Virus record (IMG/VR): IMGVR_UViG_3300027847_001653
Span: 1 to 23,868 of that record
From: a virus
Direction: 5' to 3' (one strand)
DNA: 23,868 bases
In this document: piece by piece, positions 3,452 to 23,388 of the stretch
Numbering within the stretch: the stretch's first letter is position 1
How the letters are laid out: every line of letters begins with the position of its first letter
Program-made: the position numbers and the translations under genes
The notes under the pieces: model-generated
The model's input: the letters and a program-made list of their open reading frames with translations, nothing else
What the model was told of the DNA's origin: nothing
Databases searched by the model: none

Positions 3452-3805
3452 ATGAATCAAAGTCCAGACTTTGTGGTAAGAATAGTCCGATCAGAAGATC
3501 AAAATATTGCAAACATAAAAATACTTGAAAAGATAACAGAATTCATCACGAAAAATCCGTCCTTGGCTATTTCTGGTGGATTTACAATTTCCCCAAAAGT
3601 AGGGGATTGTTCAATTTTTTTGAGTTGCATCGATTTCTTATCCCTCTTTGAAGATCTTCCATGCTCAATTAAAATAGAAAACACTTATACAAAAATCTCA
3701 GTAGAACAAAATGGAATAAAGTTTTGGACTAAGATTAGAAAAGATTTAAAACAATCAATAGTAACTAAAGAATTGTTTCAACAACACAATCAAAACAGAG
3801 GTTGA
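3452..3805 (+). CDS. Hypothetical protein, first gene of rightward operon
   Basis: 117 residues; I do not recognise a family. It looks like a small soluble alpha/beta protein: a polar N-terminus, a helix-like stretch (about 20-35), then alternating hydrophobic strands (SGGFTISPKVGDCSIFLSC and SIKIENTYTKISVEQNGIKF), ending in a basic tail. No membrane segment or signal peptide. GGGAA precedes the ATG. Only 1 nt separates its stop from the next gene, which encodes a putative DNA-binding protein, so the two are probably made together. The first-in-operon position after a control region fits an early host-takeover or regulatory role, but that is inference from place only. Confidence 0.6.
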   Translation: MNQSPDFVVRIVRSEDQNIANIKILEKITEFITKNPSLAISGGFTISPKVGDCSIFLSCIDFLSLFEDLPCSIKIENTYTKISVEQNGIKFWTKIRKDLKQSIVTKELFQQHNQNRG

Positions 3806-3806
3806 T

Positions 3807-4079
3807 ATGACTAAACAAAGGTTACCAAATAATGAAATAATCAGAAATCTGCGCGATATTTGGTTCTCAAAAGAAGGTAAAAAAAGAAATTCTGAATTAG
3901 CTGAATTAATTGATATAAATGCGAGTGCTTTATCCGCTTACTGTTCATCTAAAGAAATGAGTCCACCACGGAGATGCCCTGATTGGGTTATTTTAAAAAT
4001 GTTAGAATTATTGAATATGAAGATGACTATCTCTGGAAATGAAGTGTTATTACACAACCAAGATGAAGAAGTAGCATAA
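3807..4079 (+). CDS. Small putative helix-turn-helix DNA-binding protein
   Basis: 90 residues. The segment NSELAELIDINASALSAYCS (about 33-52) reads like the helix-turn-helix of XRE/Cro-type proteins: a first helix, a short turn, then a recognition helix, followed by a proline/arginine-rich loop (SPPRRCPDW) and another helix. Small size and the adjacent palindromes around 3366-3408 fit an autoregulator of the divergent early region. AGAGG lies just before the ATG, and the gene follows its partner by 1 nt. The match is by eye to a loose motif, so a non-DNA-binding helical protein remains possible. Confidence 0.55.
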   Translation: MTKQRLPNNEIIRNLRDIWFSKEGKKRNSELAELIDINASALSAYCSSKEMSPPRRCPDWVILKMLELLNMKMTISGNEVLLHNQDEEVA

Positions 4080-4118
4080 GAATTATATTTCAAGTCAGAA
4101 ACAATAATAGAGGTCATT

Positions 4119-4367
4119 ATGAAAGAAGGGCTTATTTCAAAAACACCACTGCAATCCAAAAAATTCATTGCAGCTATGTCATGGAATTTTATCTGGCTAG
4201 TGTTAATTGCATATGGGATTAGAACAGGTATTGAAGTAAGCTCTTTAAACGCTATGATCTACGTTACAGGTGCATCTCAGCTTGGTTATGTTGGTGGGCA
4301 AAGTGCAGTTGATGCTTGGGTTAAAGGAGCAATAGCCAAGCACTCTTCATCAACTACAGAGGAATGA
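4119..4367 (+). CDS. Small membrane protein, holin-like topology
   Basis: 82 residues. A short basic N-terminus is followed by a clear hydrophobic segment, SWNFIWLVLIAYGI (about 21-34), then a weaker one (LNAMIYVTGASQLGYVGGQS, about 44-63), and a charged C-terminus. Two segments joined by a short turn resemble class II holins and other small phage inner-membrane proteins; GGQSAVDAW is reminiscent of a motif I have seen in small phage membrane proteins. A holin would make membrane lesions for lysis, but no endolysin is visible nearby, so the role is unproven. AGAGG precedes the ATG. Confidence 0.5.
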   Translation: MKEGLISKTPLQSKKFIAAMSWNFIWLVLIAYGIRTGIEVSSLNAMIYVTGASQLGYVGGQSAVDAWVKGAIAKHSSSTTEE

Positions 4368-4371
4368 TTCT

Positions 4372-5442
4372 ATGTCTTTAGAAATGCGACCTTCTCAGAT
4401 GCGTGAAGACACTCTGGAAGATGCAGACAAAAATACCAAAGTAATGACAGAGAAAAATCCTAACGAAAATAAGATTAGGTTTGATACGAATAGTTCTGAA
4501 AGAATGATTATTGATGAGACAGGAAATGTCGGTATTGGAACCGATAATCCGACCGAGAAGCTAGATGTTAATGGAATCATAAAATCTTCTGAACTAAAGA
4601 CAGCCCAAATTAGCGATACAAATAGTAACAATGCAATAACCGTAGAAGACGGTGGCTACTTAAAATTCAATAAGGGAGTGAAGTCTTCAAGAGGGGTTCA
4701 TATCTCTGCGACCTCTACAGGAGGTTTCTACAACAAATGGATAAAGATTGCTGAAACAACGGATGTTGGTGATCATATGGATACTGCGACTTCTGTTTTC
4801 TTGATCACGATGGTTGGTGAGTCTATCTCTAACGTTAAGTCAATGGATGGTACTTTTATTGTTCAGGTCAAGTACACAGCCAAGTCAACCACCCCGTATT
4901 ATTATGCGATTGCGACGACGATTTCTGTAACTCCGCTTGGTAGTAGGAATGAATATGGGTATGCAGCAAGAGGAACACCGACCACATGGAACCCGACGAA
5001 TAGTATTTTTATAACTTCAAGCGATAGTAGCTTGACTGGTGTTGTCGAGTTGTGGCTTCGTGTTCCGTTGAGGATGCAACATGTATTTGTGAGTCAAATA
5101 GCAGGTACAACATTAGCAGACACTTCGGAAACAGACCCCGCTTTTGTTATCCTGTCTGGTCAGTCCTACACATTAGGGCAATGGGCTTCTGGTACTCCGA
5201 CATATATACCAGGAGACAGTGCATATGAGCCAGCAGGGTTAGGTTGGAAAGTGTTTGGAACTTGGGTTAGTACGAGGCTAAATGATATACAGGTAACGGG
5301 ATCTGTAACAATTGAGAACAGTTCTGTACCGGCCTCAGCAACGGCTTCTGGAACAAAAGGAACTATCACATGGGGTGACAGCTATGTATATGTTTGTACT
5401 GATACTGATGAATGGAAGAGGGCGGCCTTAGTTACTTGGTAG
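4372..5442 (+). CDS. Tail-fibre-like virion protein
   Basis: 356 residues. Residues about 35-68 contain RMIIDETGNVGIGTDNPTEK followed by LDVNG, a motif widespread in phage tail fibres and other trimeric surface proteins, where it forms a beta-rich stalk repeat. The C-terminus (about 315-356) carries SASGTKGTITW-type and YVYVCTDTDEWKRAALVTW sequence, another module common at the ends of phage appendage proteins. The middle (about 100-310) is beta-rich, Ser/Thr/Gly-rich and unassigned; it would be the receptor- or glycan-binding part. It starts 4 nt after the small membrane protein, with AGAGGAATGA upstream. Base composition from about 4700 on is near 50% G+C in sampled lines, against about 30% in the recombination genes, suggesting acquisition from elsewhere. 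Confidence 0.7.
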   Translation: MSLEMRPSQMREDTLEDADKNTKVMTEKNPNENKIRFDTNSSERMIIDETGNVGIGTDNPTEKLDVNGIIKSSELKTAQISDTNSNNAITVEDGGYLKFNKGVKSSRGVHISATSTGGFYNKWIKIAETTDVGDHMDTATSVFLITMVGESISNVKSMDGTFIVQVKYTAKSTTPYYYAIATTISVTPLGSRNEYGYAARGTPTTWNPTNSIFITSSDSSLTGVVELWLRVPLRMQHVFVSQIAGTTLADTSETDPAFVILSGQSYTLGQWASGTPTYIPGDSAYEPAGLGWKVFGTWVSTRLNDIQVTGSVTIENSSVPASATASGTKGTITWGDSYVYVCTDTDEWKRAALVTW

Positions 5443-5453
5443 ATATATATTTA

Positions 5454-5516
5454 TGGTAGGAGGTCTTCTTCCAATCTTTCTCTTTTTCATTAAATCTTTT
5501 GAAGACTCTCCTACCA
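5454..5516 (+). terminator. Large intergenic hairpin, possible terminator or attenuator
   Basis: The arm TGGTAGGAGGTCTTC (5454-5468) pairs with GAAGACTCTCCTACCA (5501-5516) as a 15-bp stem with one bulged base and a 32-nt loop. It begins 12 nt after the fibre stop codon. There is no U-tract after the stem, so it is not a standard intrinsic terminator; an RNA-processing site, a 3'-end stabiliser or an attenuator before the next two genes are alternatives. Confidence 0.45.
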
Positions 5517-5538
5517 CCTTCTATTTGAGCGAATTATT

Positions 5539-5961
5539 ATGGACTCTGAGAGTATTACAAGATTAGTTGACACTACAAGATTAATTGAATTGTGGATGAA
5601 TAATCTATGTGAGAGAAATATAGATAGAATTGTTGAATTCTATCATAAGAACGCAATTTTGGTTCCAACTCTCAGTAAAGAAATTCGGCAAGGAACTCGT
5701 GAGATAACAGATTACTTCATAGATTTTGTTGGCAACCATCCGAATCTGTGTGGCGAAGTAATATTTGAGCTTTGCCAAGAAATAAAATCTAAAGGGATAG
5801 TTATATCAGGGATCTATAATTTTACCTGGGGTGACGATGAGCAAGAAGAATTAACGGCTCGTTTCACCTATGTTTTTACCTTAGACAATGATAGTAATTG
5901 GAAGATTTTAACTCATCATTCTTCTGCAATGCCAGAAGCCAAACCTGTGCTTGGATATTGA
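5539..5961 (+). CDS. NTF2/SnoaL-like fold protein
   Basis: 140 residues, the normal size for a single NTF2-like domain. The N-terminal helices (WMNNLCERNIDRIVEFYHKNA) lead into a cone-shaped sheet, and the C-terminus NWKILTHHSSAMPE strongly recalls the last strand of SnoaL/DUF4440 and CaMKII-association-domain proteins (WxIxxHHSSxxP). Such folds serve as small enzymes, ligand-binding pockets or oligomerisation modules; the activity here is unknown. It is separated from the fibre gene by a large hairpin and is followed after 1 nt by the ATG of the thaumatin-like gene, so the pair is likely translationally coupled. This fold is rare among phage genes I know. Confidence 0.68.
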   Translation: MDSESITRLVDTTRLIELWMNNLCERNIDRIVEFYHKNAILVPTLSKEIRQGTREITDYFIDFVGNHPNLCGEVIFELCQEIKSKGIVISGIYNFTWGDDEQEELTARFTYVFTLDNDSNWKILTHHSSAMPEAKPVLGY

Positions 5962-5962
5962 T

Positions 5963-6967
5963 ATGCTAAATCTTTTATTTTTATGTATGTTTCAATTCTC
6001 TTGTAGTCATCCCGTAGATCCCGTAGAGACTGTAGATCTCGTAGAGATTATATCTATTACAGAAGAAGTGCCACAGCATAAGGTATCATTCCAAAACAAG
6101 TGCAAAGAGTCAATATGGATTGGCTCTGTAGGTGGAACGGGACATACGTCCCTTGGTAATGGTGGATGGAAAATGGAAGCAGGGTCTTCTTCTTCTATGA
6201 CGGTTCCACAAGGATGGTCAGGGCGTATATGGCCCAGAACCAATTGTAGTTTTAATGATAAAGGGCATTGCCCAACAGAGGGAGTAGATTGTTGTTCGTC
6301 TGGATCTTGTCTCGAATCCGATAATAAAACCTTTGGTCTTGAATGTGCTTATTCAGGTAAGCCGCCAACATCTTTAATTGAGATGACTTTCGACGCTCCT
6401 AGTGGCAATGGCCCATATGATACTTATGATGTTTCATTTGTAGATGGATGGTCTGTACCCGTATCCATGAACCCAAATCAAGGAACGTTTAATATTGACC
6501 CAGATAAAGGGCTTGAAGCTCCATGGTGCAAAGAAAATGGTTGTTTAGAAACCCTTTCTTGTCCAGAAGAGTACGCAGTTAAAGATTCGCCAAACTCTTG
6601 TTGGAGCCCATGCCAACACGCAGTAAACACTAATCAACCAAAAGAAGAGCAGTCAAGGCTATGTTGCGCTTGTACTATGGACCCACCGCCAAAAGGAGAG
6701 AAGGCATGTACTTGTCCTGATGCTTGTTGCGAAGGCGGGTTTGGATGCACACCGTATCATACCCCTTCTTATAGCGAAAGCATGACTTGCGACCCATGGA
6801 GTACCGATTCCAACAGAGGTTGGGATCGAATGGCATTAACGTATATACATAGTGTAAAGTCTTCTTGCCCAGAAGTGTACTCATGGCAATTTGACGATAA
6901 AGCAGCAACATTCCAATGCCGTAAAACTGACGGTATAGTTGATTATACTATAGAATTCTGTCCCTAA
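5963..6967 (+). CDS. Thaumatin-like protein (PR-5 family), probable lipoprotein
   Basis: 334 residues from the ATG at 5963 (an in-frame TTG at 5951 is less likely). The start MLNLLFLCMFQFSC is a short hydrophobic leader ending in a loose lipobox, with Cys14 as possible lipid anchor. A linker with a repeated P/T/L-V-D/E pattern (17-28) leads to the thaumatin domain from about 40 to the end. Diagnostic blocks are in family order: GRIWPRTNC, CPTEGVDCCSSGSC (compare CxTGDCGGxxxC), LIEMTF, YDVSFVDGW, CPEVYSWQFDD and the terminal DYTIEFCP. The five acidic-cleft (REDDD) residues align to R88, E140, D156, D161 and D312. The protein has 25 or so cysteines, with a Cys-rich insert at about 235-290 absent from plant members. 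Family members bind or cleave beta-1,3-glucans; that role here is inference. Confidence 0.88.
   Translation: MLNLLFLCMFQFSCSHPVDPVETVDLVEIISITEEVPQHKVSFQNKCKESIWIGSVGGTGHTSLGNGGWKMEAGSSSSMTVPQGWSGRIWPRTNCSFNDKGHCPTEGVDCCSSGSCLESDNKTFGLECAYSGKPPTSLIEMTFDAPSGNGPYDTYDVSFVDGWSVPVSMNPNQGTFNIDPDKGLEAPWCKENGCLETLSCPEEYAVKDSPNSCWSPCQHAVNTNQPKEEQSRLCCACTMDPPPKGEKACTCPDACCEGGFGCTPYHTPSYSESMTCDPWSTDSNRGWDRMALTYIHSVKSSCPEVYSWQFDDKAATFQCRKTDGIVDYTIEFCP
6011..6046 (+). repeat. Four 9-nt in-frame tandem repeats
   Basis: Units CCCGTAGAT, CCCGTAGAG, ACTGTAGAT and CTCGTAGAG encode PVD-PVE-TVD-LVE. They form the acidic spacer between the putative lipid anchor and the thaumatin domain. Each unit keeps GTAGA, consistent with slippage expansion of a linker. 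Confidence 0.8.
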
Positions 6968-6969
6968 TT

Positions 6970-8082
6970 CTATGTTCCAAAAACCGAATTATACTGCTGT
7001 GAACACCTGATAAATGTAGTGCATTTGCTAAGATCTTTTAATCTTTTTGCTCCTACATAAGTACATGTTGATCTTAAACCGCCTAGAATATCTAGAATTG
7101 TAGACTCAACTTCTCCTTTATATGGGATTCTTACAAGTCTTCCTTCACTTGCTTTATAAGCTGCGATTCCTCCATGATGAGTATTCATGGCTTTATTTGA
7201 ACTCATCCCATAAAACTCTATGAATTTTTTCTTTTCATATATAGGATTTAGTATTTCTCCATCTTCACTAACAGAATAGGAATTTGTTTTATAGGCTATT
7301 TCTGTTACTTCTCCCAACCCTTCATTATGTCCCGCTAACATACCCCCTAACATTACGAAGTCTGCACCAGCAGCAAAGGCTTTAGCTACATCACCAGCGC
7401 ACACACAGCCTCCATCTGCGATAATATGACCACCCAATCCGTGAGCAGCATCCGAACACTCTATTACCGCACTTAGTTGTGGAAAGCCTACTCCTGTCTT
7501 AATTCGGGTAGTACATACTGATCCTGGTCCTATTCCAACTTTTATTATATCTGCACCAGCCAGAAGTAATTCTTGTGTCATATCGGCAGTAACAACATTG
7601 CCAGCGATTATTATTATATCAGGAAAAGTCTTTCTTACGTTTTTTACAAAATCTACAAAATGTTCAGAATAACCATTTGCAATATCTAGACATACCCATT
7701 TTAAATCTAAGCATCCTATTATGTCTTTTGTTTTTTGCCATTCTGACTCTTTTGTTCCACTACTAATAGCGAGTAAGTTTTTATTTAATTCGTATTTTGA
7801 AGAAGAAGTATGACGCGAGTATGAGTCTAACCAATCATCTTTTGAATAATGTTTTACTGTACAAGTAAATATTTGATGTTGTTGAAGCGCATAGTGCATT
7901 TCAAATGTTCCTACTCCGTCCATATTTGCCGACATAATAGGAATTCCACACCAAGATTTGTTGGAATTTAAAAACTTATATTCTCGTTTTAATTCTACTT
8001 CTTTTCTTGACTTTAGTCTGCTTCTTTTAGGTCTTATTAAAACGTCTTTATAGTCTAATTTAAGATCTTCTATTATTCTCAT
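6970..8082 (-). CDS. guaC: GMP reductase
   Basis: 370 residues, full length and collinear with E. coli GuaC (347 residues). It begins [20 protein letters not shown], has the TIM-barrel motif [10 protein letters not shown], the phosphate and catalytic loop [11 protein letters not shown] with Cys190, then [26 protein letters not shown], and an end like [16 protein letters not shown] reductase converts GMP to IMP with NADPH and release of ammonia; the close relation of these blocks to GuaC argues against IMP dehydrogenase, and no CBS domains are present. It is the last gene of the leftward structural operon, coupled by an ATGA overlap to the virion-type gene upstream, and it ends 2 nt from the convergent thaumatin-like gene. 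Likely purpose: moving purines from G toward A during infection. Confidence 0.93.
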
Positions 8083-9284: not shown

Positions 9285-9299
9285 TAAAATTCCAATTTT

Positions 9300-9871: not shown

Positions 9872-10423
9872 CTATTTAGAAAACTTTATCTTTATATCGC
9901 TGTTAATTTCTTTTCCCCAATGATCCCAACCGGGTACTTTCCGTCTTGAAAATAACTCAATTTTATTTTGGTTAGGAAACATTTGATTTATTCTGTGTCT
10001 AACCACTTCTGGTTTCTGACTATGTTTTTCTCTAGGAAACTTGACTAATTGACGAATATTTCTTTTCCCTCTTGGGGTTGGTATTTTTCCTTTTTTACCA
10101 ATCAAACATAATTCACATTGACTCATAGTATAAAAACCGGGATTAACTCGAACCTTATCCCATACAAATCCTACAGTAGCCCATTTGAATCCCCATGCTT
10201 TCATAAGCTCAATAGCTTGATCTAAGTGAGGACTTGTAGCCCATAAAAATAATATACAGTTCTCATCTGTTATTTCAGAAATATTTAGTTTTTTAAGCTC
10301 TTTCAATTTTAGAGTTTCATAGTGAATTAATGCTCCACCAGTATCTCTACCACCTTTTCCGTTGTGTTGTGTTTGGCCTTTGTAGTCCCACGGTGGATCT
10401 GCATATATTATTTGATATTTCAT
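9872..10423 (-). CDS. MT-A70 family N6-adenine methyltransferase
   Basis: 183 residues from the ATG at 10423. The catalytic DPPW is at residues 9-12, preceded by the strand YQIIYA; other family blocks are CILFLWATSPHLDQAIELMK, GFKWATVGFVWDK, SQCELCLIGKKGK, EKHSQKPEVVRHRI, and KIELFSRR followed by GWDHWG. It transfers a methyl group from SAM to adenine N6, most likely in DNA, as for many phage members. The ATG overlaps the preceding stop as ATGA; a GTG two codons earlier (10429) is the alternative. It sits in the structural operon, so it is probably late and may mark DNA before packaging. Confidence 0.85.
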   Translation of the reverse strand: MKYQIIYADPPWDYKGQTQHNGKGGRDTGGALIHYETLKLKELKKLNISEITDENCILFLWATSPHLDQAIELMKAWGFKWATVGFVWDKVRVNPGFYTMSQCELCLIGKKGKIPTPRGKRNIRQLVKFPREKHSQKPEVVRHRINQMFPNQNKIELFSRRKVPGWDHWGKEINSDIKIKFSK

Positions 10424-10809
10424 TTCCACTTATTAATTACAGAAGATTTGAGAAATTGGGTTCGTGATATATTTGTATCTAAAGTAGTTGAAAGATTTTC
10501 TGGTACAGGTGAGAAACCATCTAAATGAAGAGTTTCGTAAACGTGTCCCCTTCGTGATCTCCTTACTTTGAGCGTTATACCAGCAGAAGGAATCATTGCT
10601 CTTCTAGTATTACTTTGTTTTGCAACACCTATTAAGTGTTCTAGTGTTTCAATGTCCACTAAAAACCTAACGTCCCTTTTGCTTTCTGTTCCTCCCAAGG
10701 TGTATACTCTTAAAACCTCATCTTGTCCCGAAAGCTGTAAAGGAGTTGAATTTATTAAAACCTCCTCTAATAGAGGCGCGTTACTTTGCCATTCTTTTTT
10801 TATAGTCAC
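10420..10809 (-). CDS. Hypothetical protein in tail-completion block
   Basis: 129 residues, not recognised. It begins at GTG, overlapping the upstream stop as GTGA, and its own stop overlaps the MT-A70 ATG as ATGA, so it is translationally coupled on both sides. The middle contains RDVRFLVDIETLEHLIGVAK and a basic run KVRRSRRGHVYE. Placement directly after the tail-terminator-like gene suggests a minor tail or assembly protein. No signal peptide or membrane segment. Confidence 0.6.
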   Translation of the reverse strand: MTIKKEWQSNAPLLEEVLINSTPLQLSGQDEVLRVYTLGGTESKRDVRFLVDIETLEHLIGVAKQSNTRRAMIPSAGITLKVRRSRRGHVYETLHLDGFSPVPENLSTTLDTNISRTQFLKSSVINKWK

Positions 10810-11236: not shown

Positions 11237-11719
11237 CTATGCTGCTTTACCAAATAAGATTTTACGGATTTCTCTTTTTACTGGCCTACTTCTGGCGACA
11301 CCTCTTATTGGGTTTCGTTTAATCATTTTCTTAGACCCTGTAAAAATAGCTTCTGCCCATTTAGAACCATCTTCATAATAAATTCTTCCTATAGCCCCAT
11401 CATTAGTAAATGAAGCAGGGATGAATTTCTTTTTCAGTCCTTTTGGGAAACTTCCTTTAGAACCTACTTGGTAAACATATCTTGGAGATATAACGCCTTT
11501 CTGTATATAACCATGACGTTTTGCATAGGGATGACCCATTGCTTTTAACTGATCTTTTGACCACCTTTCTAAAGTAATAGATTCTTTAACTTTTTTGAAT
11601 AAATAATTTAGAGCTTTTTTTACTTTTCGATTTTCTGCTTTAAATATATAATTACCAATTTCCTTTTTCATACTCTTCGGGTTTTTCATACGAACTCTTG
11701 TAAACGCTCTAATCGACAT
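11237..11719 (-). CDS. Putative HK97 gp10-like tail-completion protein
   Basis: 160 residues, strongly basic. An N-terminal helical region (KKEIGNYIFKAENRKVKKAL) is followed by a helix with KVKESITLERW, a glycine/aromatic-rich middle (HGYIQKGVISPRYVYQVG), a strand segment (GRIYYEDGSKWAEAIFTG) and a last helix ending KREIRKILFG. HK97 gp10-type proteins have the same helix-sheet-helix plan and lie between the head-tail connector and the tail terminator, as here apart from the inserted glycosyltransferase. The start overlaps the glycosyltransferase stop by 11 nt, and GGGAA lies upstream. Confidence 0.5.
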   Translation of the reverse strand: MSIRAFTRVRMKNPKSMKKEIGNYIFKAENRKVKKALNYLFKKVKESITLERWSKDQLKAMGHPYAKRHGYIQKGVISPRYVYQVGSKGSFPKGLKKKFIPASFTNDGAIGRIYYEDGSKWAEAIFTGSKKMIKRNPIRGVARSRPVKREIRKILFGKAA

Positions 11720-14657
11720 TAGTTATTCCCAACTCACCCAAACCAAGTAATTTACTAGAAGGTAATCCTATTTGTTCAATCTTTTCTGATAAATCTTCAT
11801 CCAATGTAATAGTATATCCTTCTGTGTTTATTATCGGAATTTCTATATTTAACTTCTCAAGTGTTAAGATCATTGACCTTGCTTTATCATAAAATTTATG
11901 ATTTTTAGATAGTCTCATCGGAACCTGTCTTAGATAGAATAAAGCTATTCTAAGATGATTCATAGATGCTTCTTTAAATGGTAAAAAGGCTCCCGACTTT
12001 TGAGACTGTTTACATGCCTCTTCAAGACAAATGGTTCCGTTTTTTACATTTCCGTCATTTATAAATTGTAACCCTAGAGAGATCCAAGCTTTAGCATCTT
12101 TTGGATCTTCTATTAGATGATCTAGTAACAGTTCTCCGTATTTCTTTAACTTTTCACCCATCTGTTTTCCATCAAGTGAAAGACCTCTATTTATAATAAC
12201 TATTTCGGAATCTCTCAGTGTAGATCGTTCTTTAGTGTTTATTAGTTTTAGTATAGCTTTCTCAAATCCTTCATGTACTAGCCCATCCATTTTCATACTT
12301 GGGTGTAGAACAAACATTCTAATAGATTCACTAGGCGAAGATTTAGGTAAGCCTGTTTTACGATCAAAATCATTAAGGATATTTTTAAAATTGAAGAAGT
12401 ATCCCAAAGTATCTTCGTTTTCAGCTAGTTTTGATATTTCTTGAAATGTCTCTAAATAATCTACTGGTTCTTCGTCTGGATCAAAGAAAATAGCCCATCT
12501 CATAAGAGAATCTGGATTGTTTTCCATTAAATATTCTATTCCCTTATTTCTACAATGAGATAATCCTTTGTTATTACAAAGTAATCTATGACAAATATCA
12601 ACACTGTATATTTTACATATAAAAGCAAATTCCCAAGAAGGACCAGTATTATAGACTTCTCTCCATGTTTCCTTTTTAGGTAATTCTTCTATACTATGGT
12701 TTATCCAAATTTGATCTTCAATATCCCATTTTTCAGTCCATGTGATTACTTGTTTATCACACAACATATATGTCTTATCTATCCAGTTATGAAGATCAAA
12801 TAGTTGATCATCTTTATGACTAAGCATAAATAAACCAATTCCATTTTTTGGCATATAAAATCTTACAGATACTTGTCTATCTAAAATATGATTAAATCCA
12901 TCTACTCCAAATAACTTAGGATCTAACTCATCTTGACTCATATAATTATTATACTTTGCTACTCTATCACCAGTTCTTATATGAGATAATTTTCTTGTCC
13001 TTAATCCAGCAACGCTTACACTAAGGTGTCCTGTTTCTGGTGCATGACTAAATCCAACACCTTCTTCTGTACCATCTACAAGTTTTTGTTGAACAGGTAT
13101 ACAACGGAATAATTTGTTAGAAACCATGCTTCCAAAGTTTCTGTCTGTTCTTAATAATTGTGTACTTTCCCAATGATGTAATATTCTTGTTGTGATTGTT
13201 TGAGTTTTTAAGTTTGGTGTTCTACACCACTTATGAAGCAACTCATAACTAATTCGATCTTCAATGATTTCGTCAGAATCTAAACTTAAAATCCAATCAG
13301 CGTTTAAAGAATATGCATTAGTATGACAAAGATTTGTTTCTTCTCTTGGATTTTGTTCTTTATTCCAGAATTCTACAAGCAGATCCACATTGTAATTTAT
13401 ATAAATATTTTCTTCATTATTAACAGGACTGTTATCTATGAATTGATTGTATTGGGTTTGACAAAAATCGAGACTGTCTTTTATCCATTTTGTAGTTAAT
13501 TCTTCAATTTTTTCTTTTTCATTTTCTGAAGCTGATACCCTTAAACAGTCATTCAAATATTGAAAATCTTGTGGAATTAATTGTTGAGCTAAAGCCGAAT
13601 CATATGACTGTAAACATATCGATGGATTATGAGGAACAACTATAGAAATACCATCGACATTTTTAGCTGTTCTAGCAACAGAAGATTTAAATTGGGCTAT
13701 GTCGTTTATGGTTTCAAGGTCAGCACGATAACAAGCAATGATTTTTTGTTCTTTTAGAGTTTTTTCAGAATATTTTCTAATAAGATATATGTTATCTGCT
13801 ATCAGATTGTCTTTATATTTTTTATCCAAAGATTTATCTAGTCTTGTATGACCTATATAACAATCCGCACAAATCACTCCGATCCAATTTTTCTCATTAG
13901 CCCTAAAAATCAAATCGTCAACTTGGCGTTCATATCCTTGTAAAGACTCATCATATAACCCTCCAATAGAGCTATCCCATACTTCTTCAAGAAAGTCCTT
14001 TTTCAATGTTAAACAGAATCCATCTAAGGATTCAGTAACAATATATGTTCCAACATTATGACGATGATATTGTGCTGAATATTTGTCAATACCTATACCA
14101 CTAAGCATCTCTGCGTTGGCTACCTGTTGATTTCCTATAGCTCCATAACTAAGCGGTCCAGCAAATCCTATTTTGACTTTTTGGTTATATACCTCTTCTA
14201 ATTCAAGGGGTAGTTCATCTTGTATTTGACGGTTTTTAGTGTTGATATAGTCCGATACACAAGCTCTCTCTATGTGTTTTAACCAATCTTTGGTTACGAT
14301 TAAATCATCATGTGCGATTGTTAGAAATTCAGTTAAAGCATATTTTTCTTTTAAAAGATTTATTCCTACGTTTACAGCAGTAGAAAAACTTGTGTCTTTT
14401 TCAGATAAAACAAAATCAATATCTGGGCATTGTAACTTGTAAGAGGCTTCGATTGTATCCTTTAAACTTTTACACAGTTCAATAATGCGCGTGGTTTCAT
14501 CTTCGTCATTAGATTTAACCAAAGATAAGATTATAATACATTTTCTATTTACAGTGAATTCTAGAAATCTAGTAAAATATTGTTCATATGTATTAAAACA
14601 CGCTTTACTTGGCATTATAATCGCATGATTATATTTAGAACCATTTGTTATGTTCAT
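11709..14657 (-). CDS. Multi-domain glycosyltransferase (GT-A folds plus TPR-like tail)
   Basis: 982 residues, the longest gene here. Three glycosyltransferase-like parts are visible by their acidic metal/sugar-nucleotide motifs: HDDLIV (about 116), LDSDEIIED (about 458) and FFDPDEEPVD (about 722). The first region has NVGINLLKEKY and GGLYDESLQGYERQVDDLIF, like GT2 enzymes; the second and third resemble the 'LDSDE/DPDE' GT2 group. Residues about 850-930 (DAKAWISLGLQFINDGN and on) look like tetratricopeptide helices. It likely adds several sugars to a protein or glycan on the virion or host surface. It is inserted between connector and gp10-like genes with its own 215-nt upstream gap and AAGGA site. 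Substrate and number of active sites are unknown. Confidence 0.78.
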   Translation of the reverse strand: MNITNGSKYNHAIIMPSKACFNTYEQYFTRFLEFTVNRKCIIILSLVKSNDEDETTRIIELCKSLKDTIEASYKLQCPDIDFVLSEKDTSFSTAVNVGINLLKEKYALTEFLTIAHDDLIVTKDWLKHIERACVSDYINTKNRQIQDELPLELEEVYNQKVKIGFAGPLSYGAIGNQQVANAEMLSGIGIDKYSAQYHRHNVGTYIVTESLDGFCLTLKKDFLEEVWDSSIGGLYDESLQGYERQVDDLIFRANEKNWIGVICADCYIGHTRLDKSLDKKYKDNLIADNIYLIRKYSEKTLKEQKIIACYRADLETINDIAQFKSSVARTAKNVDGISIVVPHNPSICLQSYDSALAQQLIPQDFQYLNDCLRVSASENEKEKIEELTTKWIKDSLDFCQTQYNQFIDNSPVNNEENIYINYNVDLLVEFWNKEQNPREETNLCHTNAYSLNADWILSLDSDEIIEDRISYELLHKWCRTPNLKTQTITTRILHHWESTQLLRTDRNFGSMVSNKLFRCIPVQQKLVDGTEEGVGFSHAPETGHLSVSVAGLRTRKLSHIRTGDRVAKYNNYMSQDELDPKLFGVDGFNHILDRQVSVRFYMPKNGIGLFMLSHKDDQLFDLHNWIDKTYMLCDKQVITWTEKWDIEDQIWINHSIEELPKKETWREVYNTGPSWEFAFICKIYSVDICHRLLCNNKGLSHCRNKGIEYLMENNPDSLMRWAIFFDPDEEPVDYLETFQEISKLAENEDTLGYFFNFKNILNDFDRKTGLPKSSPSESIRMFVLHPSMKMDGLVHEGFEKAILKLINTKERSTLRDSEIVIINRGLSLDGKQMGEKLKKYGELLLDHLIEDPKDAKAWISLGLQFINDGNVKNGTICLEEACKQSQKSGAFLPFKEASMNHLRIALFYLRQVPMRLSKNHKFYDKARSMILTLEKLNIEIPIINTEGYTITLDEDLSEKIEQIGLPSSKLLGLGELGITNVD

Positions 14658-16214: not shown

Positions 16215-17222
16215 CTATGATGCACTAAGACCTAAAAGCAATGCTCCACCAAGAGTATTAGCAAGCACTGGTGCGCCATCCCAATACATATCAAACTCAT
16301 CAAATTGAGAACTTGTTTTAGCTAAAGGCATCACTGTAACAGGAGTAAGTTCAGAGAGATATGAATAGCGTGTATTAAGGATCAATAATGCAGTAGTAGC
16401 TTCTACTCCAGTACCTGAAGCACTAGAAATAGTTCCAGCACTATCAATTAATATTGTATTTGCCATCTGAGTAGAAACAATCAATGGGATTCCATCATAA
16501 GTTCTAACTCTAAATCCAGCAGCAATTTCAGTTACATTGTTGAACTGTTGCTGTGATTGAAGGGCATTATTAAGCTGTCTAATTCCAGCAAAAGACCCAA
16601 CAATAACCAAGTCACTTCTCTGAGCAGATCCTTTTACCTTATCAATTGCTTCATCGAGTTTTGATAAAGTTAAATCCGTTGCATAGGTAGTCACTCCACC
16701 GTTTATCACACACTGTGAAAGATTTACATTAATTAGAGTCAAGAACCCATTAACGTTTTTACTTTCTGCACTAAAAGCGTTTCCGTTCATAATTCCGTCT
16801 TCTAGTGCATTTGCAAAATCTTCTGCTTTAGCAGACATTTCCAAAGCAAGAATATCTGCATATGAACGACCTGTTGCCTGAAGTTTCCTGGTTACCTGAC
16901 CCTGAGTGAGAAGGGTTTTGAACTCAAAGGTTGCCCTATCGTATGCCCCTACTTCTGAAGTCGTCGCCTCAGTATCATTAACCCATGCTCCGCCCGTTGT
17001 TCCAGCAGTTCTTTGGTTAATAATTTCAGCTTGACCTGTTCCTGGTCTACGAGAAAGAACGGCTTGAAGACCAAACTCACGAAGAGTAAGTTGTTGAACA
17101 GTTCGATTCACAAAGGTTTGAAGCAGATCACTACCTGCATCAGTTACCGTTAATTCTGTTGCTCGTTGGAACCTTTGACGGGTAGCATCATCGGAACCAA
17201 ACCAATTTTGTTTTTTAGCCAT
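16215..17222 (-). CDS. Major capsid protein (HK97 fold)
   Basis: 335 residues. Features of HK97-fold capsid proteins: a helical N-terminal arm (RQRFQRATELTVTDAGSDLL), the segment GTGQAEIINQRTAGTTGGAW leading to an E-loop, a long spine helix (ADILALEMSAKAEDFANALE), the A-domain strand SDLVIVGSFAGIRQL and the late IPLIVSTQM. There is no long N-terminal delta domain, which fits a scaffold supplied by the upstream gene. It starts 27 nt after the protease/scaffold gene with AGGAG 9 nt before the ATG, and is followed at once by a strong terminator, as expected for a highly expressed protein. The gene order protease, scaffold, capsid is the classic one. Confidence 0.85.
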   Translation of the reverse strand: MAKKQNWFGSDDATRQRFQRATELTVTDAGSDLLQTFVNRTVQQLTLREFGLQAVLSRRPGTGQAEIINQRTAGTTGGAWVNDTEATTSEVGAYDRATFEFKTLLTQGQVTRKLQATGRSYADILALEMSAKAEDFANALEDGIMNGNAFSAESKNVNGFLTLINVNLSQCVINGGVTTYATDLTLSKLDEAIDKVKGSAQRSDLVIVGSFAGIRQLNNALQSQQQFNNVTEIAAGFRVRTYDGIPLIVSTQMANTILIDSAGTISSASGTGVEATTALLILNTRYSYLSELTPVTVMPLAKTSSQFDEFDMYWDGAPVLANTLGGALLLGLSAS

Positions 17223-19579: not shown

Positions 19580-21463
19580 ATGAAATTAGCTTCAAATTTA
19601 TTAAATCTTGACTCTTTCAAAAAACAACAAGGAACATGGGGAATAGAATCCAGAAAAAGAAAAGGATTGCATTATAGTTCTAGTTATTTTGGAGGTTCTA
19701 GTGTTGGAGTAGGGCTAAATCGCTATAGTGATCGACTTTTATCGGATTCTGACTTATGGGTAGTATATAAAAGATGTGCTGATGTTAGAGCATGTATAGA
19801 CTCTATTGTTAGAAGAGTAGCCACATTTGATTGGTTAGTAATTCCCAAAGTCAGTCCACAAAATCCAGAGTATGAAGAGCTTCAAAAAATAGCACATAGT
19901 GTAAATAATTTCTTTTTAAACCCAAACAGAAATGGTGACACTTGGCAAGAAATAATGACTTCTATGCTAACGGATTGTTTAGTTTTTGATGCAGGGGTTT
20001 TAGAGCTTGCATATGATCGTAGAGGAAATCTACAAGAATTAATTCCACTTCGTGGTTGTACTATCTCTCCAGTTATTGATGAATTTGGAAGGCTTTTACA
20101 TTATGATCAAAATATTTTTGAAGAAGGAACATATTTCTCGACCCCATCAAATAGCACTGGAGAAGAACAAAAGTTTAAAGCCAAACAAATAATGTATTTA
20201 TCATTATTTAAGAACACAGCATTGCCATCAGGCAACCCTTTAATTGAATCGCTTGTCAATCAAGTAATAGCGTTAATGAGGGCGACTGAACACGCTATGT
20301 TAAATCTTGATGCCGATGAGGTTCCTCCCGGTATTTTAATATTAGCTGGAATTGCTGGAAAAGCAGCAGAAGAGGCTAAAGCCGATTTGCAACGCCTAAA
20401 AGGACAAGATCATAAAGTAAGAGTAATGACCACCCCCGATCCAACTGGTATAGGTGCAAAGTGGCTTGAATTGCGAAGAACCCCCAAAGACATTCAAATG
20501 CACGAAATAATTCAAGATATTAGGCGAGTTATTTATCGCGTATTTGGGGTTATGCCTGTTGAAATGGGAATGACACAAGGCATCCCCAAAGCTACCGCTA
20601 CTGTTCAAATGGACGTTGCTGCTTCTCATCTTGTAACTCCTATACTGGAATTAATTCAAGCTAAAATCAATGCTCAAATTATACCTGCAATTGTAAAAAG
20701 CAGAGAAGTTGCTCGTCTTATTGAATTTAAATTTGATAGAGAATCTAGATTATCAACTCAAGAACAACTTCATCTTTCAAGCACATATCGTAACTATGTC
20801 ACACAGGGAATAATGACACGAAACGAAATACGGGAAGGTCTTGGTCTTCTTCCAATTATAGGTGGCGATGTTCCAACAGTTGAAGTAGCGGGAATGCCAC
20901 AAGCTCTTGCTGAAATAATACAAGGTCACGAAGTTAGCAAAGCCCCTAAAGATGAAGTAAAAATAGAGATAGATCAAGTGTTAGAAGAGTTAGAAGAGGA
21001 GGTACCTCCACCTTTATTTGGTAATGAAGAAATAAAACAACCGATTACTTTAGAAAGTAGAAGTGAGGATGAACTAGAAAATTTAGATATAGCATTACCA
21101 GAAACAATTAATAATGTAGAAATCACAGTTATAGATCATAAATTTGCATTTGATGGAAATGTAATTGATAAAATTGTTCTAGTAAAAGGATTTACTTATA
21201 TTCTTAATCAAAATGATATTAGTAATTCGGATCATTCTTTTCGGTTTAGTGAAACCTATGATGGAATTCATGCAAATGGAAAAGAATATAAGAAAGGAAT
21301 TAAATATTACGGAAAAGCAGGTGAAGATGGTGCATATGTTGAAATGATTACCGATAATACAACACCTGATAAACTATATTTCTACTGTGAACATTTACAA
21401 GGCATGGGTGGACTAATTGATTTCTCAGGAGAACTAATAGATACCGAAGATATTCCTGAGTAA
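19580..21463 (+). CDS. Portal protein with C-terminal cupredoxin-like domain
   Basis: 627 residues. Residues about 50-430 are an HK97/SPP1-type portal: WVVYKRCADVRACIDSIVRR, an upper-stem-like FDAGVLELAYDRRGNLQEL, KQIMYLSLF, GVMPVEMGMT and QEQLHLSSTYRNYVTQG. Twelve copies would form the DNA gate at one capsid vertex. After an acidic linker (about 450-510), residues 511-627 match a beta-rich module common in aquatic phage proteins: GFTYILNQNDISNSDHSFRF, DGIHANGKEYKKGI, GAYVEM and YFYCEHLQGMGG. It has cupredoxin-like candidate ligands His552, Cys603, His605 and Met609. The gene is opposite to the protease and capsid genes and lacks a good ribosome binding site, which fits a low-copy protein. 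Confidence 0.85.
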   Translation: MKLASNLLNLDSFKKQQGTWGIESRKRKGLHYSSSYFGGSSVGVGLNRYSDRLLSDSDLWVVYKRCADVRACIDSIVRRVATFDWLVIPKVSPQNPEYEELQKIAHSVNNFFLNPNRNGDTWQEIMTSMLTDCLVFDAGVLELAYDRRGNLQELIPLRGCTISPVIDEFGRLLHYDQNIFEEGTYFSTPSNSTGEEQKFKAKQIMYLSLFKNTALPSGNPLIESLVNQVIALMRATEHAMLNLDADEVPPGILILAGIAGKAAEEAKADLQRLKGQDHKVRVMTTPDPTGIGAKWLELRRTPKDIQMHEIIQDIRRVIYRVFGVMPVEMGMTQGIPKATATVQMDVAASHLVTPILELIQAKINAQIIPAIVKSREVARLIEFKFDRESRLSTQEQLHLSSTYRNYVTQGIMTRNEIREGLGLLPIIGGDVPTVEVAGMPQALAEIIQGHEVSKAPKDEVKIEIDQVLEELEEEVPPPLFGNEEIKQPITLESRSEDELENLDIALPETINNVEITVIDHKFAFDGNVIDKIVLVKGFTYILNQNDISNSDHSFRFSETYDGIHANGKEYKKGIKYYGKAGEDGAYVEMITDNTTPDKLYFYCEHLQGMGGLIDFSGELIDTEDIPE

Positions 21464-21466
21464 TGA

Positions 21467-22423
21467 TTATTTCTTAACAAGATTGTTTTCAACCCATTCA
21501 ATTCTTCTTTTGATTATTGAATAGTACAATTCGTTTTGTTCTATACCAATAACATTGTAGTCTTGTAATACAGCGGCAATAGCAGTAGTTCCACTACCCA
21601 TGAAAGGATCTAATACCGTTCCACCTTCTGCTGTTATAAGCCTTATACACCATTTAATTAACTTTAAAGGCTTCACAGTTGGGTGTGGATTCTGATCCAT
21701 TCCTTCTGTTAATTCTAGACCTAAATTCTTCTCTTTTCTAGACGCTTTTTTACAATGATAAATATTACCTGCCCACCTACCCCCTTTAGGTTTATAAGAA
21801 CTTAAATCAACTCTTTTTCTTCTTGAAGAATTAATTAAACAAGAACCTTTAGTAAAATTGGTTAAAGTCGGTTTATCCCATTGTCCAGAATGATCGTGTT
21901 GTGGTCCGACCCAACAGGGATCTCCATAAGCAAATCTAGTAGCACCAATATTCATAGCTCCTGTTCTACTTTTCAAAAGTTGTTCAGCTACAGTTTTTTC
22001 TTGTAGTGGTTTCTGTGCTAAGACTGCTGGTTCAAAACATGGTTTTAAAGCTGTTGACCAACCTTCTAATCGTGCATCAATCTTACCGTAGTGTTGTGAT
22101 TTTGGTACACCACTAAAATAAAGCCAGTTAATGCAATCCTTTATGTTGAATTTTGCGTCTTCGATTCCGCAAACCATTCTATGATATGTTCTAGGTGAAG
22201 AAAATGAAATCATATATCCACCGGGACGAAGAACTCTAAAACATTCTTTTGCCCACACTCTACACCACATTGAAAATTGAGCATTAGAGCCAAAGTTGTC
22301 CCATTTGGACTTATCCATTTCTAAATTGTAAGGTGGATCTGTTACTACTGAATGGATTGAATTTGAAGGTATTTTCTTCATTTCCTCAATACAATCACCA
22401 AGAAATAGTTGCAATTTACTCAC
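21467..22423 (-). CDS. Beta-class DNA methyltransferase (N6-adenine or N4-cytosine)
   Basis: 318 residues from a GTG start. The catalytic DPPY (residues 29-32, TDPPYNL) comes first and the SAM-binding DPFMGSGTT (about 272-280) comes last, the order of beta-class enzymes. VLRPGGYMISFSS and HPTVKPLKLIKWC are other family blocks. The region between (about 115-235) is the target-recognition part, with Cys/His/Gly-rich stretches. The enzyme methylates an amino group in a specific DNA sequence; no restriction partner is seen, so it is probably an orphan protecting phage DNA. The GTG overlaps the previous stop by 1 nt (TAGTG), and the gene ends 3 nt from the convergent portal gene. Confidence 0.87.
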   Translation of the reverse strand: MSKLQLFLGDCIEEMKKIPSNSIHSVVTDPPYNLEMDKSKWDNFGSNAQFSMWCRVWAKECFRVLRPGGYMISFSSPRTYHRMVCGIEDAKFNIKDCINWLYFSGVPKSQHYGKIDARLEGWSTALKPCFEPAVLAQKPLQEKTVAEQLLKSRTGAMNIGATRFAYGDPCWVGPQHDHSGQWDKPTLTNFTKGSCLINSSRRKRVDLSSYKPKGGRWAGNIYHCKKASRKEKNLGLELTEGMDQNPHPTVKPLKLIKWCIRLITAEGGTVLDPFMGSGTTAIAAVLQDYNVIGIEQNELYYSIIKRRIEWVENNLVKK

Positions 22424-23388
22424 TATAATTCTTCGTTATAATTTGCAGATATAAACTTATCTAAATTTGATTTTATTGATTCTGGCAATTCTTCTATAGA
22501 ATATGGAACCGCTTTAGGAATCTGCCATTCAAAACCTACAGCTTGTTCTAAATTTGTGTTGTTTTTTGTTGGATGCCAAGTGACCCACTTTTCTTCAAAC
22601 CAATTTGGATTTGCTGCTGTATCATTAATTTTTGAAGCAATTCCTAAACTAATCACATGTTTCCAAAAATTTGTTTTATATGACCAAGCAAATCCTAAAT
22701 TGTGTGTTCTTGCCGACAATCTATTTAATGGGTATTGGCTAGAGTTACAGTGCATATGTGTACTTGGCAACAACCCTATTTTTTCAGTATTCCAGAACAT
22801 GCTACACAATCTAAATCTTGGGTTTTTAAGGGATCTAATTTTATATTTAGAGAAGAATTCCGATATAGATATTCCCATTTTGTCTATATGTTCTTTTAAA
22901 TCAGGCAATGGAGGATCACATAATTGTGGAACACAGTGATTAAATCCCTTCCATACCTCCCATTGTTCAGTAGTCGCTTGTGAGTATTCCCTTTCAATAA
23001 ACTCATCTAATGCCATCTCTATTTGATCTTTTCTAAAAACATGGTCAACTTCCATCATTATCAAAATATCTGAACTGCCATATTTTGGTACAATTATATT
23101 GTTATACATAATTGTAAATTGATTATTATTGGTGCTGAAATATTGTTTAATTAAAACTATTTTTTCTTCTTTTAAATCAGTAATCTTATCTACTATATTA
23201 TCTATCTTTTTTGGTATCTTATATATTTCATTATTGTACTCAACACTATGAATTTTCCCGAACGCTCTATCGGTCCAAAAAACAAATATTTTATCAGCGT
23301 ATGGGAGTATGGATTTTAAAGACTCTTCAATGAAATCATCACCATAAAAAGCCCTATAAACCACATATATTTTTTTCCCTTTATACAT
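22423..23388 (-). CDS. Glycosyltransferase-like protein (GT-A type)
   Basis: 321 residues. The N-terminus KIYVVYRAFYGDDFIEESL and YADKIFVFWTDRAF resemble the nucleotide-binding start of family-2-like glycosyltransferases, and ILIMMEVDHVF places an acidic E-x-D motif after a strand, as in the DxD site. WNTEKIGLLPSTHMHC and RTHNLGFAWSYKTNFWKH follow. It lies between a SAM methyltransferase and a DNA methyltransferase on the same strand, so a role in sugar addition to virion, host surface or modified DNA is open. GGGAA precedes the ATG. Substrate unknown; the family call is by pattern, not by a strong signature. Confidence 0.6.
   Translation of the reverse strand: MYKGKKIYVVYRAFYGDDFIEESLKSILPYADKIFVFWTDRAFGKIHSVEYNNEIYKIPKKIDNIVDKITDLKEEKIVLIKQYFSTNNNQFTIMYNNIIVPKYGSSDILIMMEVDHVFRKDQIEMALDEFIEREYSQATTEQWEVWKGFNHCVPQLCDPPLPDLKEHIDKMGISISEFFSKYKIRSLKNPRFRLCSMFWNTEKIGLLPSTHMHCNSSQYPLNRLSARTHNLGFAWSYKTNFWKHVISLGIASKINDTAANPNWFEEKWVTWHPTKNNTNLEQAVGFEWQIPKAVPYSIEELPESIKSNLDKFISANYNEEL

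Follow-up and report, generated by a model that had tools for sequence, protein, structure and literature searches.

Thaumatin-like proteins have the fold of sweet thaumatin and of the antifungal osmotins of plants, and are known mainly as defence and wall-modifying proteins of plants and fungi. The locus described here raises the question of how a gene for such a protein comes to lie in phage DNA, and what it may do there. The window, that is the whole stretch of DNA analysed, comprises 23,868 nt (positions 1–23,868 of the virus record IMGVR_UViG_3300027847_001653 in IMG/VR). The gene is an ORF of 334 aa at 5963–6967 on the plus strand with an ATG start and zero internal stops; an in-frame TTG at 5951 lies ahead of the ATG at 5963. 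The features on which the argument draws are as follows.

4119–4367, plus strand: small protein with a weak holin match (phrog_9987, E = 0.0043; PHROG search)
4372–5442, plus strand: tail-fibre-like protein (phrog_9942, E = 9.2e-8), upstream of the thaumatin gene in the plus-strand cluster
5539–5961, plus strand: NTF2/SnoaL-like protein (Pfam match to CaMKII_AD, PF08332)
5963–6967 (stop included), plus strand: thaumatin-family protein, 334 aa (PF00314; Pfam match, predicted fold, REDDD residues kept)
5963–6004, plus strand: short hydrophobic leader MLNLLFLCMFQFS-C14, from its sequence a candidate signal peptide/lipobox, non-canonical
6080–6964, plus strand: thaumatin domain with an enlarged Cys-rich part (24 Cys, 22 of them common to the large-phage homologues L007 and L008)
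16215–17222, minus strand: major capsid protein of HK97 type (PF05065; profile match)
19580–21463, plus strand: portal protein (PF04860; profile match)

The gene in its phage setting

The window is phage DNA, as the original prediction had claimed, and the phage is a tailed one: it encodes a portal protein and an HK97-type capsid protein, and a longer contig of the same phage adds a GpA-like terminase. Together these three rule out an origin from a eukaryotic virus. The longer contig (IMG/VR 3300010883_016180, 53,803 bases), which may come from the same sample as the window, differs from it by 1 mismatch in 17,804 aligned bases (99.99% identity), with none in the thaumatin gene. It extends the genome by tens of kb and carries, besides the terminase, tail genes, LamG-type proteins and a protein of 1900 residues that we read as a likely tape measure. 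Phage genes flank the thaumatin gene on both sides, in one direction within the window and in the other on this twin contig. Misassembled or contaminating cellular DNA, the danger to which the original prediction had pointed, is therefore unlikely, given that a second contig agrees over 17.8 kb and holds an identical gene.

To judge from its sequence, the window phage is distant from isolated phages: a tblastn search with the capsid against 50,697 phage records gave no match, and the best matches of its terminase are ~24% identical. The window also encodes a PD-(D/E)XK protein and an AAA protein. A C-terminal extra region of the portal protein (residues ~510–620) matches virion structural proteins and tail fibres of cyanophages.

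The thaumatin gene is one of six same-strand ORFs that span 3452–6967 (plus strand). The stop of the NTF2/SnoaL-like ORF lies one base ahead of its ATG, a gap which suggests that the two ORFs are probably translationally coupled. A scan of this setting for promoters and terminators gave nothing decisive.

Fold, cleft and cysteines

The ORF encodes, with near certainty, an intact thaumatin-family protein. It matches PF00314 (Thaumatin) with E = 2.6e-36 and a score of 125.7 bits, where the curated cut-off is 27.4, and thaumatin-like proteins in the PDB match it by sequence with E values down to 6.6e-20. The blocks GRIWPRTNC, YDVSFVDGW, CPEVYSWQFDD and DYTIEFCP, which had led to its assignment to the family, are found in the ORF. 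The further claim that all five cleft residues align with osmotin is borne out by the phmmer alignment with 1pcv, in which R44, E84, D97, D102 and D185 of osmotin correspond to R49, E101, D117, D122 and D273 of the window protein (counted from base 6080, the domain start). In an alignment of 32 sequences from phages and bacteria, E84 and D97 do not vary at all, and D102, D185 and R44 are almost as constant.

An AlphaFold model of the mature protein (mean pLDDT 82.2, pTM 0.81) has the thaumatin beta-sandwich, the outcome expected by the original prediction. Its best structure matches in the PDB are Pru av 2, an osmotin, Mal d 2 and a Puccinia thaumatin-like protein (probability 1.00), followed by thaumatin itself and then by the bacterial structure 7p22. 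For the top matches, TM scores normalised to the target are mostly 0.78–0.86; normalised to the 320-residue query they are 0.5–0.6, because the phage protein is longer than the PDB targets. The solved structure 7p22, from Amycolatopsis rifamycinica, has the same fold (E = 5.7e-12), although this actinobacterial protein is a more distant relative.

Plant thaumatin-like proteins and osmotin (PR-5; PF00314; CAZy GH152) share with the window protein the fold and the REDDD cleft and, at the level of alignment columns, the conserved cysteines of the family framework. The window protein differs in being phage-encoded and ~100 residues longer, with an enlarged Cys-rich part, and it has 24 cysteines in its mature form where the plant proteins have 16 (forming eight disulfides, PMC6272156). 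Alignment columns 249 and 272 are both Cys in the window protein and in the bacterial relative L010, and both lack Cys in L007 and L008; gain or loss as a pair is the pattern expected of a disulfide. Together with the 22 shared cysteines, this fits folding outside the cytoplasm, in an oxidising compartment.

The original prediction had read the protein as a lipoprotein, and this is partly supported. The three large-phage homologues L007, L008 and L009 and the bacterial relative L010 all have canonical lipoboxes, and the three phage leaders pass the PROSITE-type pattern, so the reading is good for the relatives. The leader of the window copy, MLNLLFLCMFQFSC, is short, has no Lys or Arg, carries Q at -3 and fails the pattern, so that this copy is no more than a candidate lipoprotein.

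Relatives in large phages and in bacteria

When 2.9 million IMG/VR contigs were scanned, at least three viral homologues came to light besides the twin contig, a minimum count since the scanning relied on patterns that are short and conserved: L007 (contig of 618,736 bases), L008 (146,769) and L009 (151,955). The three contigs form one syntenic group with dozens of common genes, many of them 50–88% identical. Each of them has the thaumatin gene at the same place: on one side stands a conserved gene of 538 residues, common to the three, and on the other an RF-1-type release factor, which is followed by an N6/N4 methyltransferase and then by the DNA polymerase. That they are phages is concluded from this synteny, from DNA polymerase and baseplate wedge matches, and from a match to terminase in the largest contig (G002, 618 kb); searches of these large phages with Terminase_6N and the portal family PF04860 found nothing. 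Single members of the group encode a VWA-domain protein and an R2K-type ATP-grasp protein.

The window protein is 54–55% identical to L007 and L008 in local alignment, and the only other gene common to the window phage and the large phages is a generic methyltransferase. As the phages are otherwise unrelated, the gene must have moved from phage to phage or entered from a shared bacterial pool. Between L007 and L008 dN is 0.197 and dS 1.022 (dN/dS ~0.19), and the gene is therefore under constraint in that pair; synonymous sites are saturated in the pairs that include the window, for which dN/dS is not computable. The L009 copy (10001–10732) occupies the same syntenic place, yet its identity to its counterparts is only ~25%, much lower than that of the genes around it, which may reflect either fast evolution or replacement in place.

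These data bear on whether the gene is simply a recent passenger without function in the phage. Its rarity among phages would suit such an origin, as would its GC content (42.7% compared to 34.3% for the window), but the tail-fibre-like gene likewise has 42% GC, and both its shared location in three large phages and the low dN/dS argue for a maintained function there. We consider a passenger very improbable.

In a tree of 40 rows, the window copy groups with L007 and L008 (support 100/95), and L011 (Nitrospirae) and L010 (Deltaproteobacteria) join next in a five-row group (98/99); L009 lies on a long branch and its placement is unsure. In AU tests a single origin of all four viral copies was not rejected (p = 0.27), and the same holds for a pairing of the window copy with L010 (p = 0.35), so that it is the bootstrap and SH-aLRT values that support the phage clade. 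L010, encoded in a metagenome-assembled genome, is 45% identical to the window protein, has a lipobox and, with L012 and L013 from Myxococcota, exemplifies bacterial thaumatin-like lipoproteins with the same domain. These differ from the phage copies in being chromosomal and rare, and L010 is in addition fused to a long N-terminal part. Cellular members were found in 6 of 297 genomes of one phylum and 8 of 379 of another, query genomes counted.

The simplest account would be capture from bacteria and subsequent movement between phages, in that presumed direction. A recent transfer from plants or fungi is disfavoured, as the copies nearest to it come from phages and bacteria, in a tree that holds as few as four eukaryotic rows, three of which lack the middle part. 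Spread by plasmids was likewise set aside, the only plasmid matches being distant ones in Streptomyces (29–31%).

Thaumatin folds encoded by viruses are annotated in Tupanvirus soda lake (A0A6N1NQK4, E = 5.5e-20) and Feldmannia species virus (B5LW99, E = 8.6e-13), but the hosts of those viruses are eukaryotic. Searches of PHROGs and of 50,697 annotated phage genomes gave no thaumatin homologue, the significant structure matches of the model to viral proteins included none from a phage, and literature searches turned up no paper on a phage thaumatin-like protein, all of which agrees with the earlier statement that no phage example had been characterised. What appears to be new is that the family occurs in tailed phages, and in two lineages unrelated to each other, with copies that group together and hold a fixed position in the large phages.

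Possible roles at the host surface

Thaumatin-like proteins bind or hydrolyse beta-1,3-glucans, and known members are antifungal (PMC6272156); a whitefly GH152 protein with the same REDDD motif and cleft is a demonstrated active glucanase (PMC11800479). The window protein may possibly have beta-1,3-glucanase activity, although the REDDD cleft does not predict catalysis because it is kept in nearly all family members.

The closest relatives of the gene hold a fixed place in unrelated giant phages, and it follows that phages probably maintain the gene to act on glycans of the host surface. Our preferred reading, which we offer tentatively and at somewhat less than an even chance, is that this is a functional thaumatin-family protein which tailed phages obtained from a rare bacterial lineage and keep under selection, and that it acts on a glycan of the cell envelope. 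The protein would be expressed with the tail-fibre-associated gene cluster and, after export, would fold outside the cytoplasm with about 12 disulfides; it would be lipid-anchored in the large-phage homologues and perhaps loosely so in the window copy. Its acidic cleft might then bind, and possibly cut, a beta-glucan-like glycan at the envelope of the infected cell, where the likely gain would be a changed cell surface, with less re-adsorption of phage and easier release. Glucan attack, superinfection exclusion and change of the host surface, the roles suggested originally, are matters of inference, as had been said then.

In favour of this reading we count the fold, the REDDD residues, the many cysteines with two of them gained or lost as a pair, the lipoboxes, the synteny in three large phages, the dN/dS of L007 and L008, the place downstream of a tail-fibre-like gene, which is reminiscent of T5 (below), a UDP-glucose/GDP-mannose dehydrogenase on the longer contig and a sub-threshold glycosyltransferase match in the window. 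Against it we count the window leader, which is short and uncharged and does not fit the lipobox pattern.

The cluster shared with the tail-fibre-like gene on the same strand could instead indicate a virion component, with the thaumatin domain displayed on the tail or fibre, where it would aid adsorption by binding or cutting a glycan of the host surface, in the manner of a tail-associated depolymerase or carbohydrate-binding domain. The beta-glucan binding of thaumatin folds (PMC6272156) is compatible with this. However, the lipoboxes of the large-phage homologues point to the cell envelope rather than to virions, the gene in those phages adjoins a release factor and a DNA methyltransferase, and virions are assembled in the cytoplasm, a compartment in which so many disulfides would not form. 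We regard a virion role as fairly unlikely.

The same arrangement recalls phage T5, in which the gene for the exclusion lipoprotein Llp lies just downstream of that for the receptor-binding protein pb5 (PMC9586334); the likeness in gene order is suggestive only, the two systems being compared by position and leader. If the thaumatin-like protein acted as Llp does on FhuA, it would be a superinfection-exclusion lipoprotein directed at a protein receptor, with the glycan cleft incidental, and the lipoprotein leaders of the large-phage homologues would be in keeping with that. Yet Llp is far smaller (61 residues in structure comparison) and is not described as thaumatin-like (PMC9586334), and the REDDD cleft is fully kept in the window protein, which argues for a glycan role. 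This alternative seems to us unlikely.

It is also conceivable that the gene is cargo that helps the host bacterium, for example against fungi or protists with beta-glucan walls. Both the antifungal and the glucan-binding or glucan-cleaving activities of family members (PMC6272156) and the sporadic carriage of such genes by bacteria would favour this. But none of the proteins examined was recognised as an integrase, so that a lysogenic life is hypothetical, and the homologues sit in very large phage contigs, and we judge cargo distinctly unlikely. A PADLOC search gave no match that would mark the gene as a known defence gene.

Returning to a glycan-directed envelope protein, we advance with a shade more reserve the broader proposal that at least two unrelated lineages of tailed phages exchange and maintain a dedicated thaumatin-fold protein of the envelope, and that this protein binds or cleaves glycans of the host surface in the course of infection, which would be a new phage function for the fold. 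The family in any case extends to phages. This suggests that its glycan-binding cleft plays some part when bacteria are infected, and it raises the question of which bacterial glycan the phage proteins recognise. Should they cut bacterial beta-glucan, they would represent a new class of phage depolymerase.

Some other genes of these phages deserve mention. The window encodes a full-length GMP reductase, GuaC, of nucleotide metabolism (6970–8082, minus strand; NF003470, E = 2.6e-161, above cut-off) and two DNA methyltransferases (9872–10429 and 21467–22423, both minus strand), by sequence one of MT-A70 and one of N6/N4 type; an RF-1-type release factor is encoded by the large syntenic phages. 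Possible glycan-related genes lie at 11709–14657 and 22423–23388 of the window (both minus strand) and at 9288–15070 of L005. They include a 982-residue window protein, the source of the glycosyltransferase 2 match, the dehydrogenase, which is carried by the 53.8 kb contig, and cupin, methyltransferase-like and radical SAM proteins.
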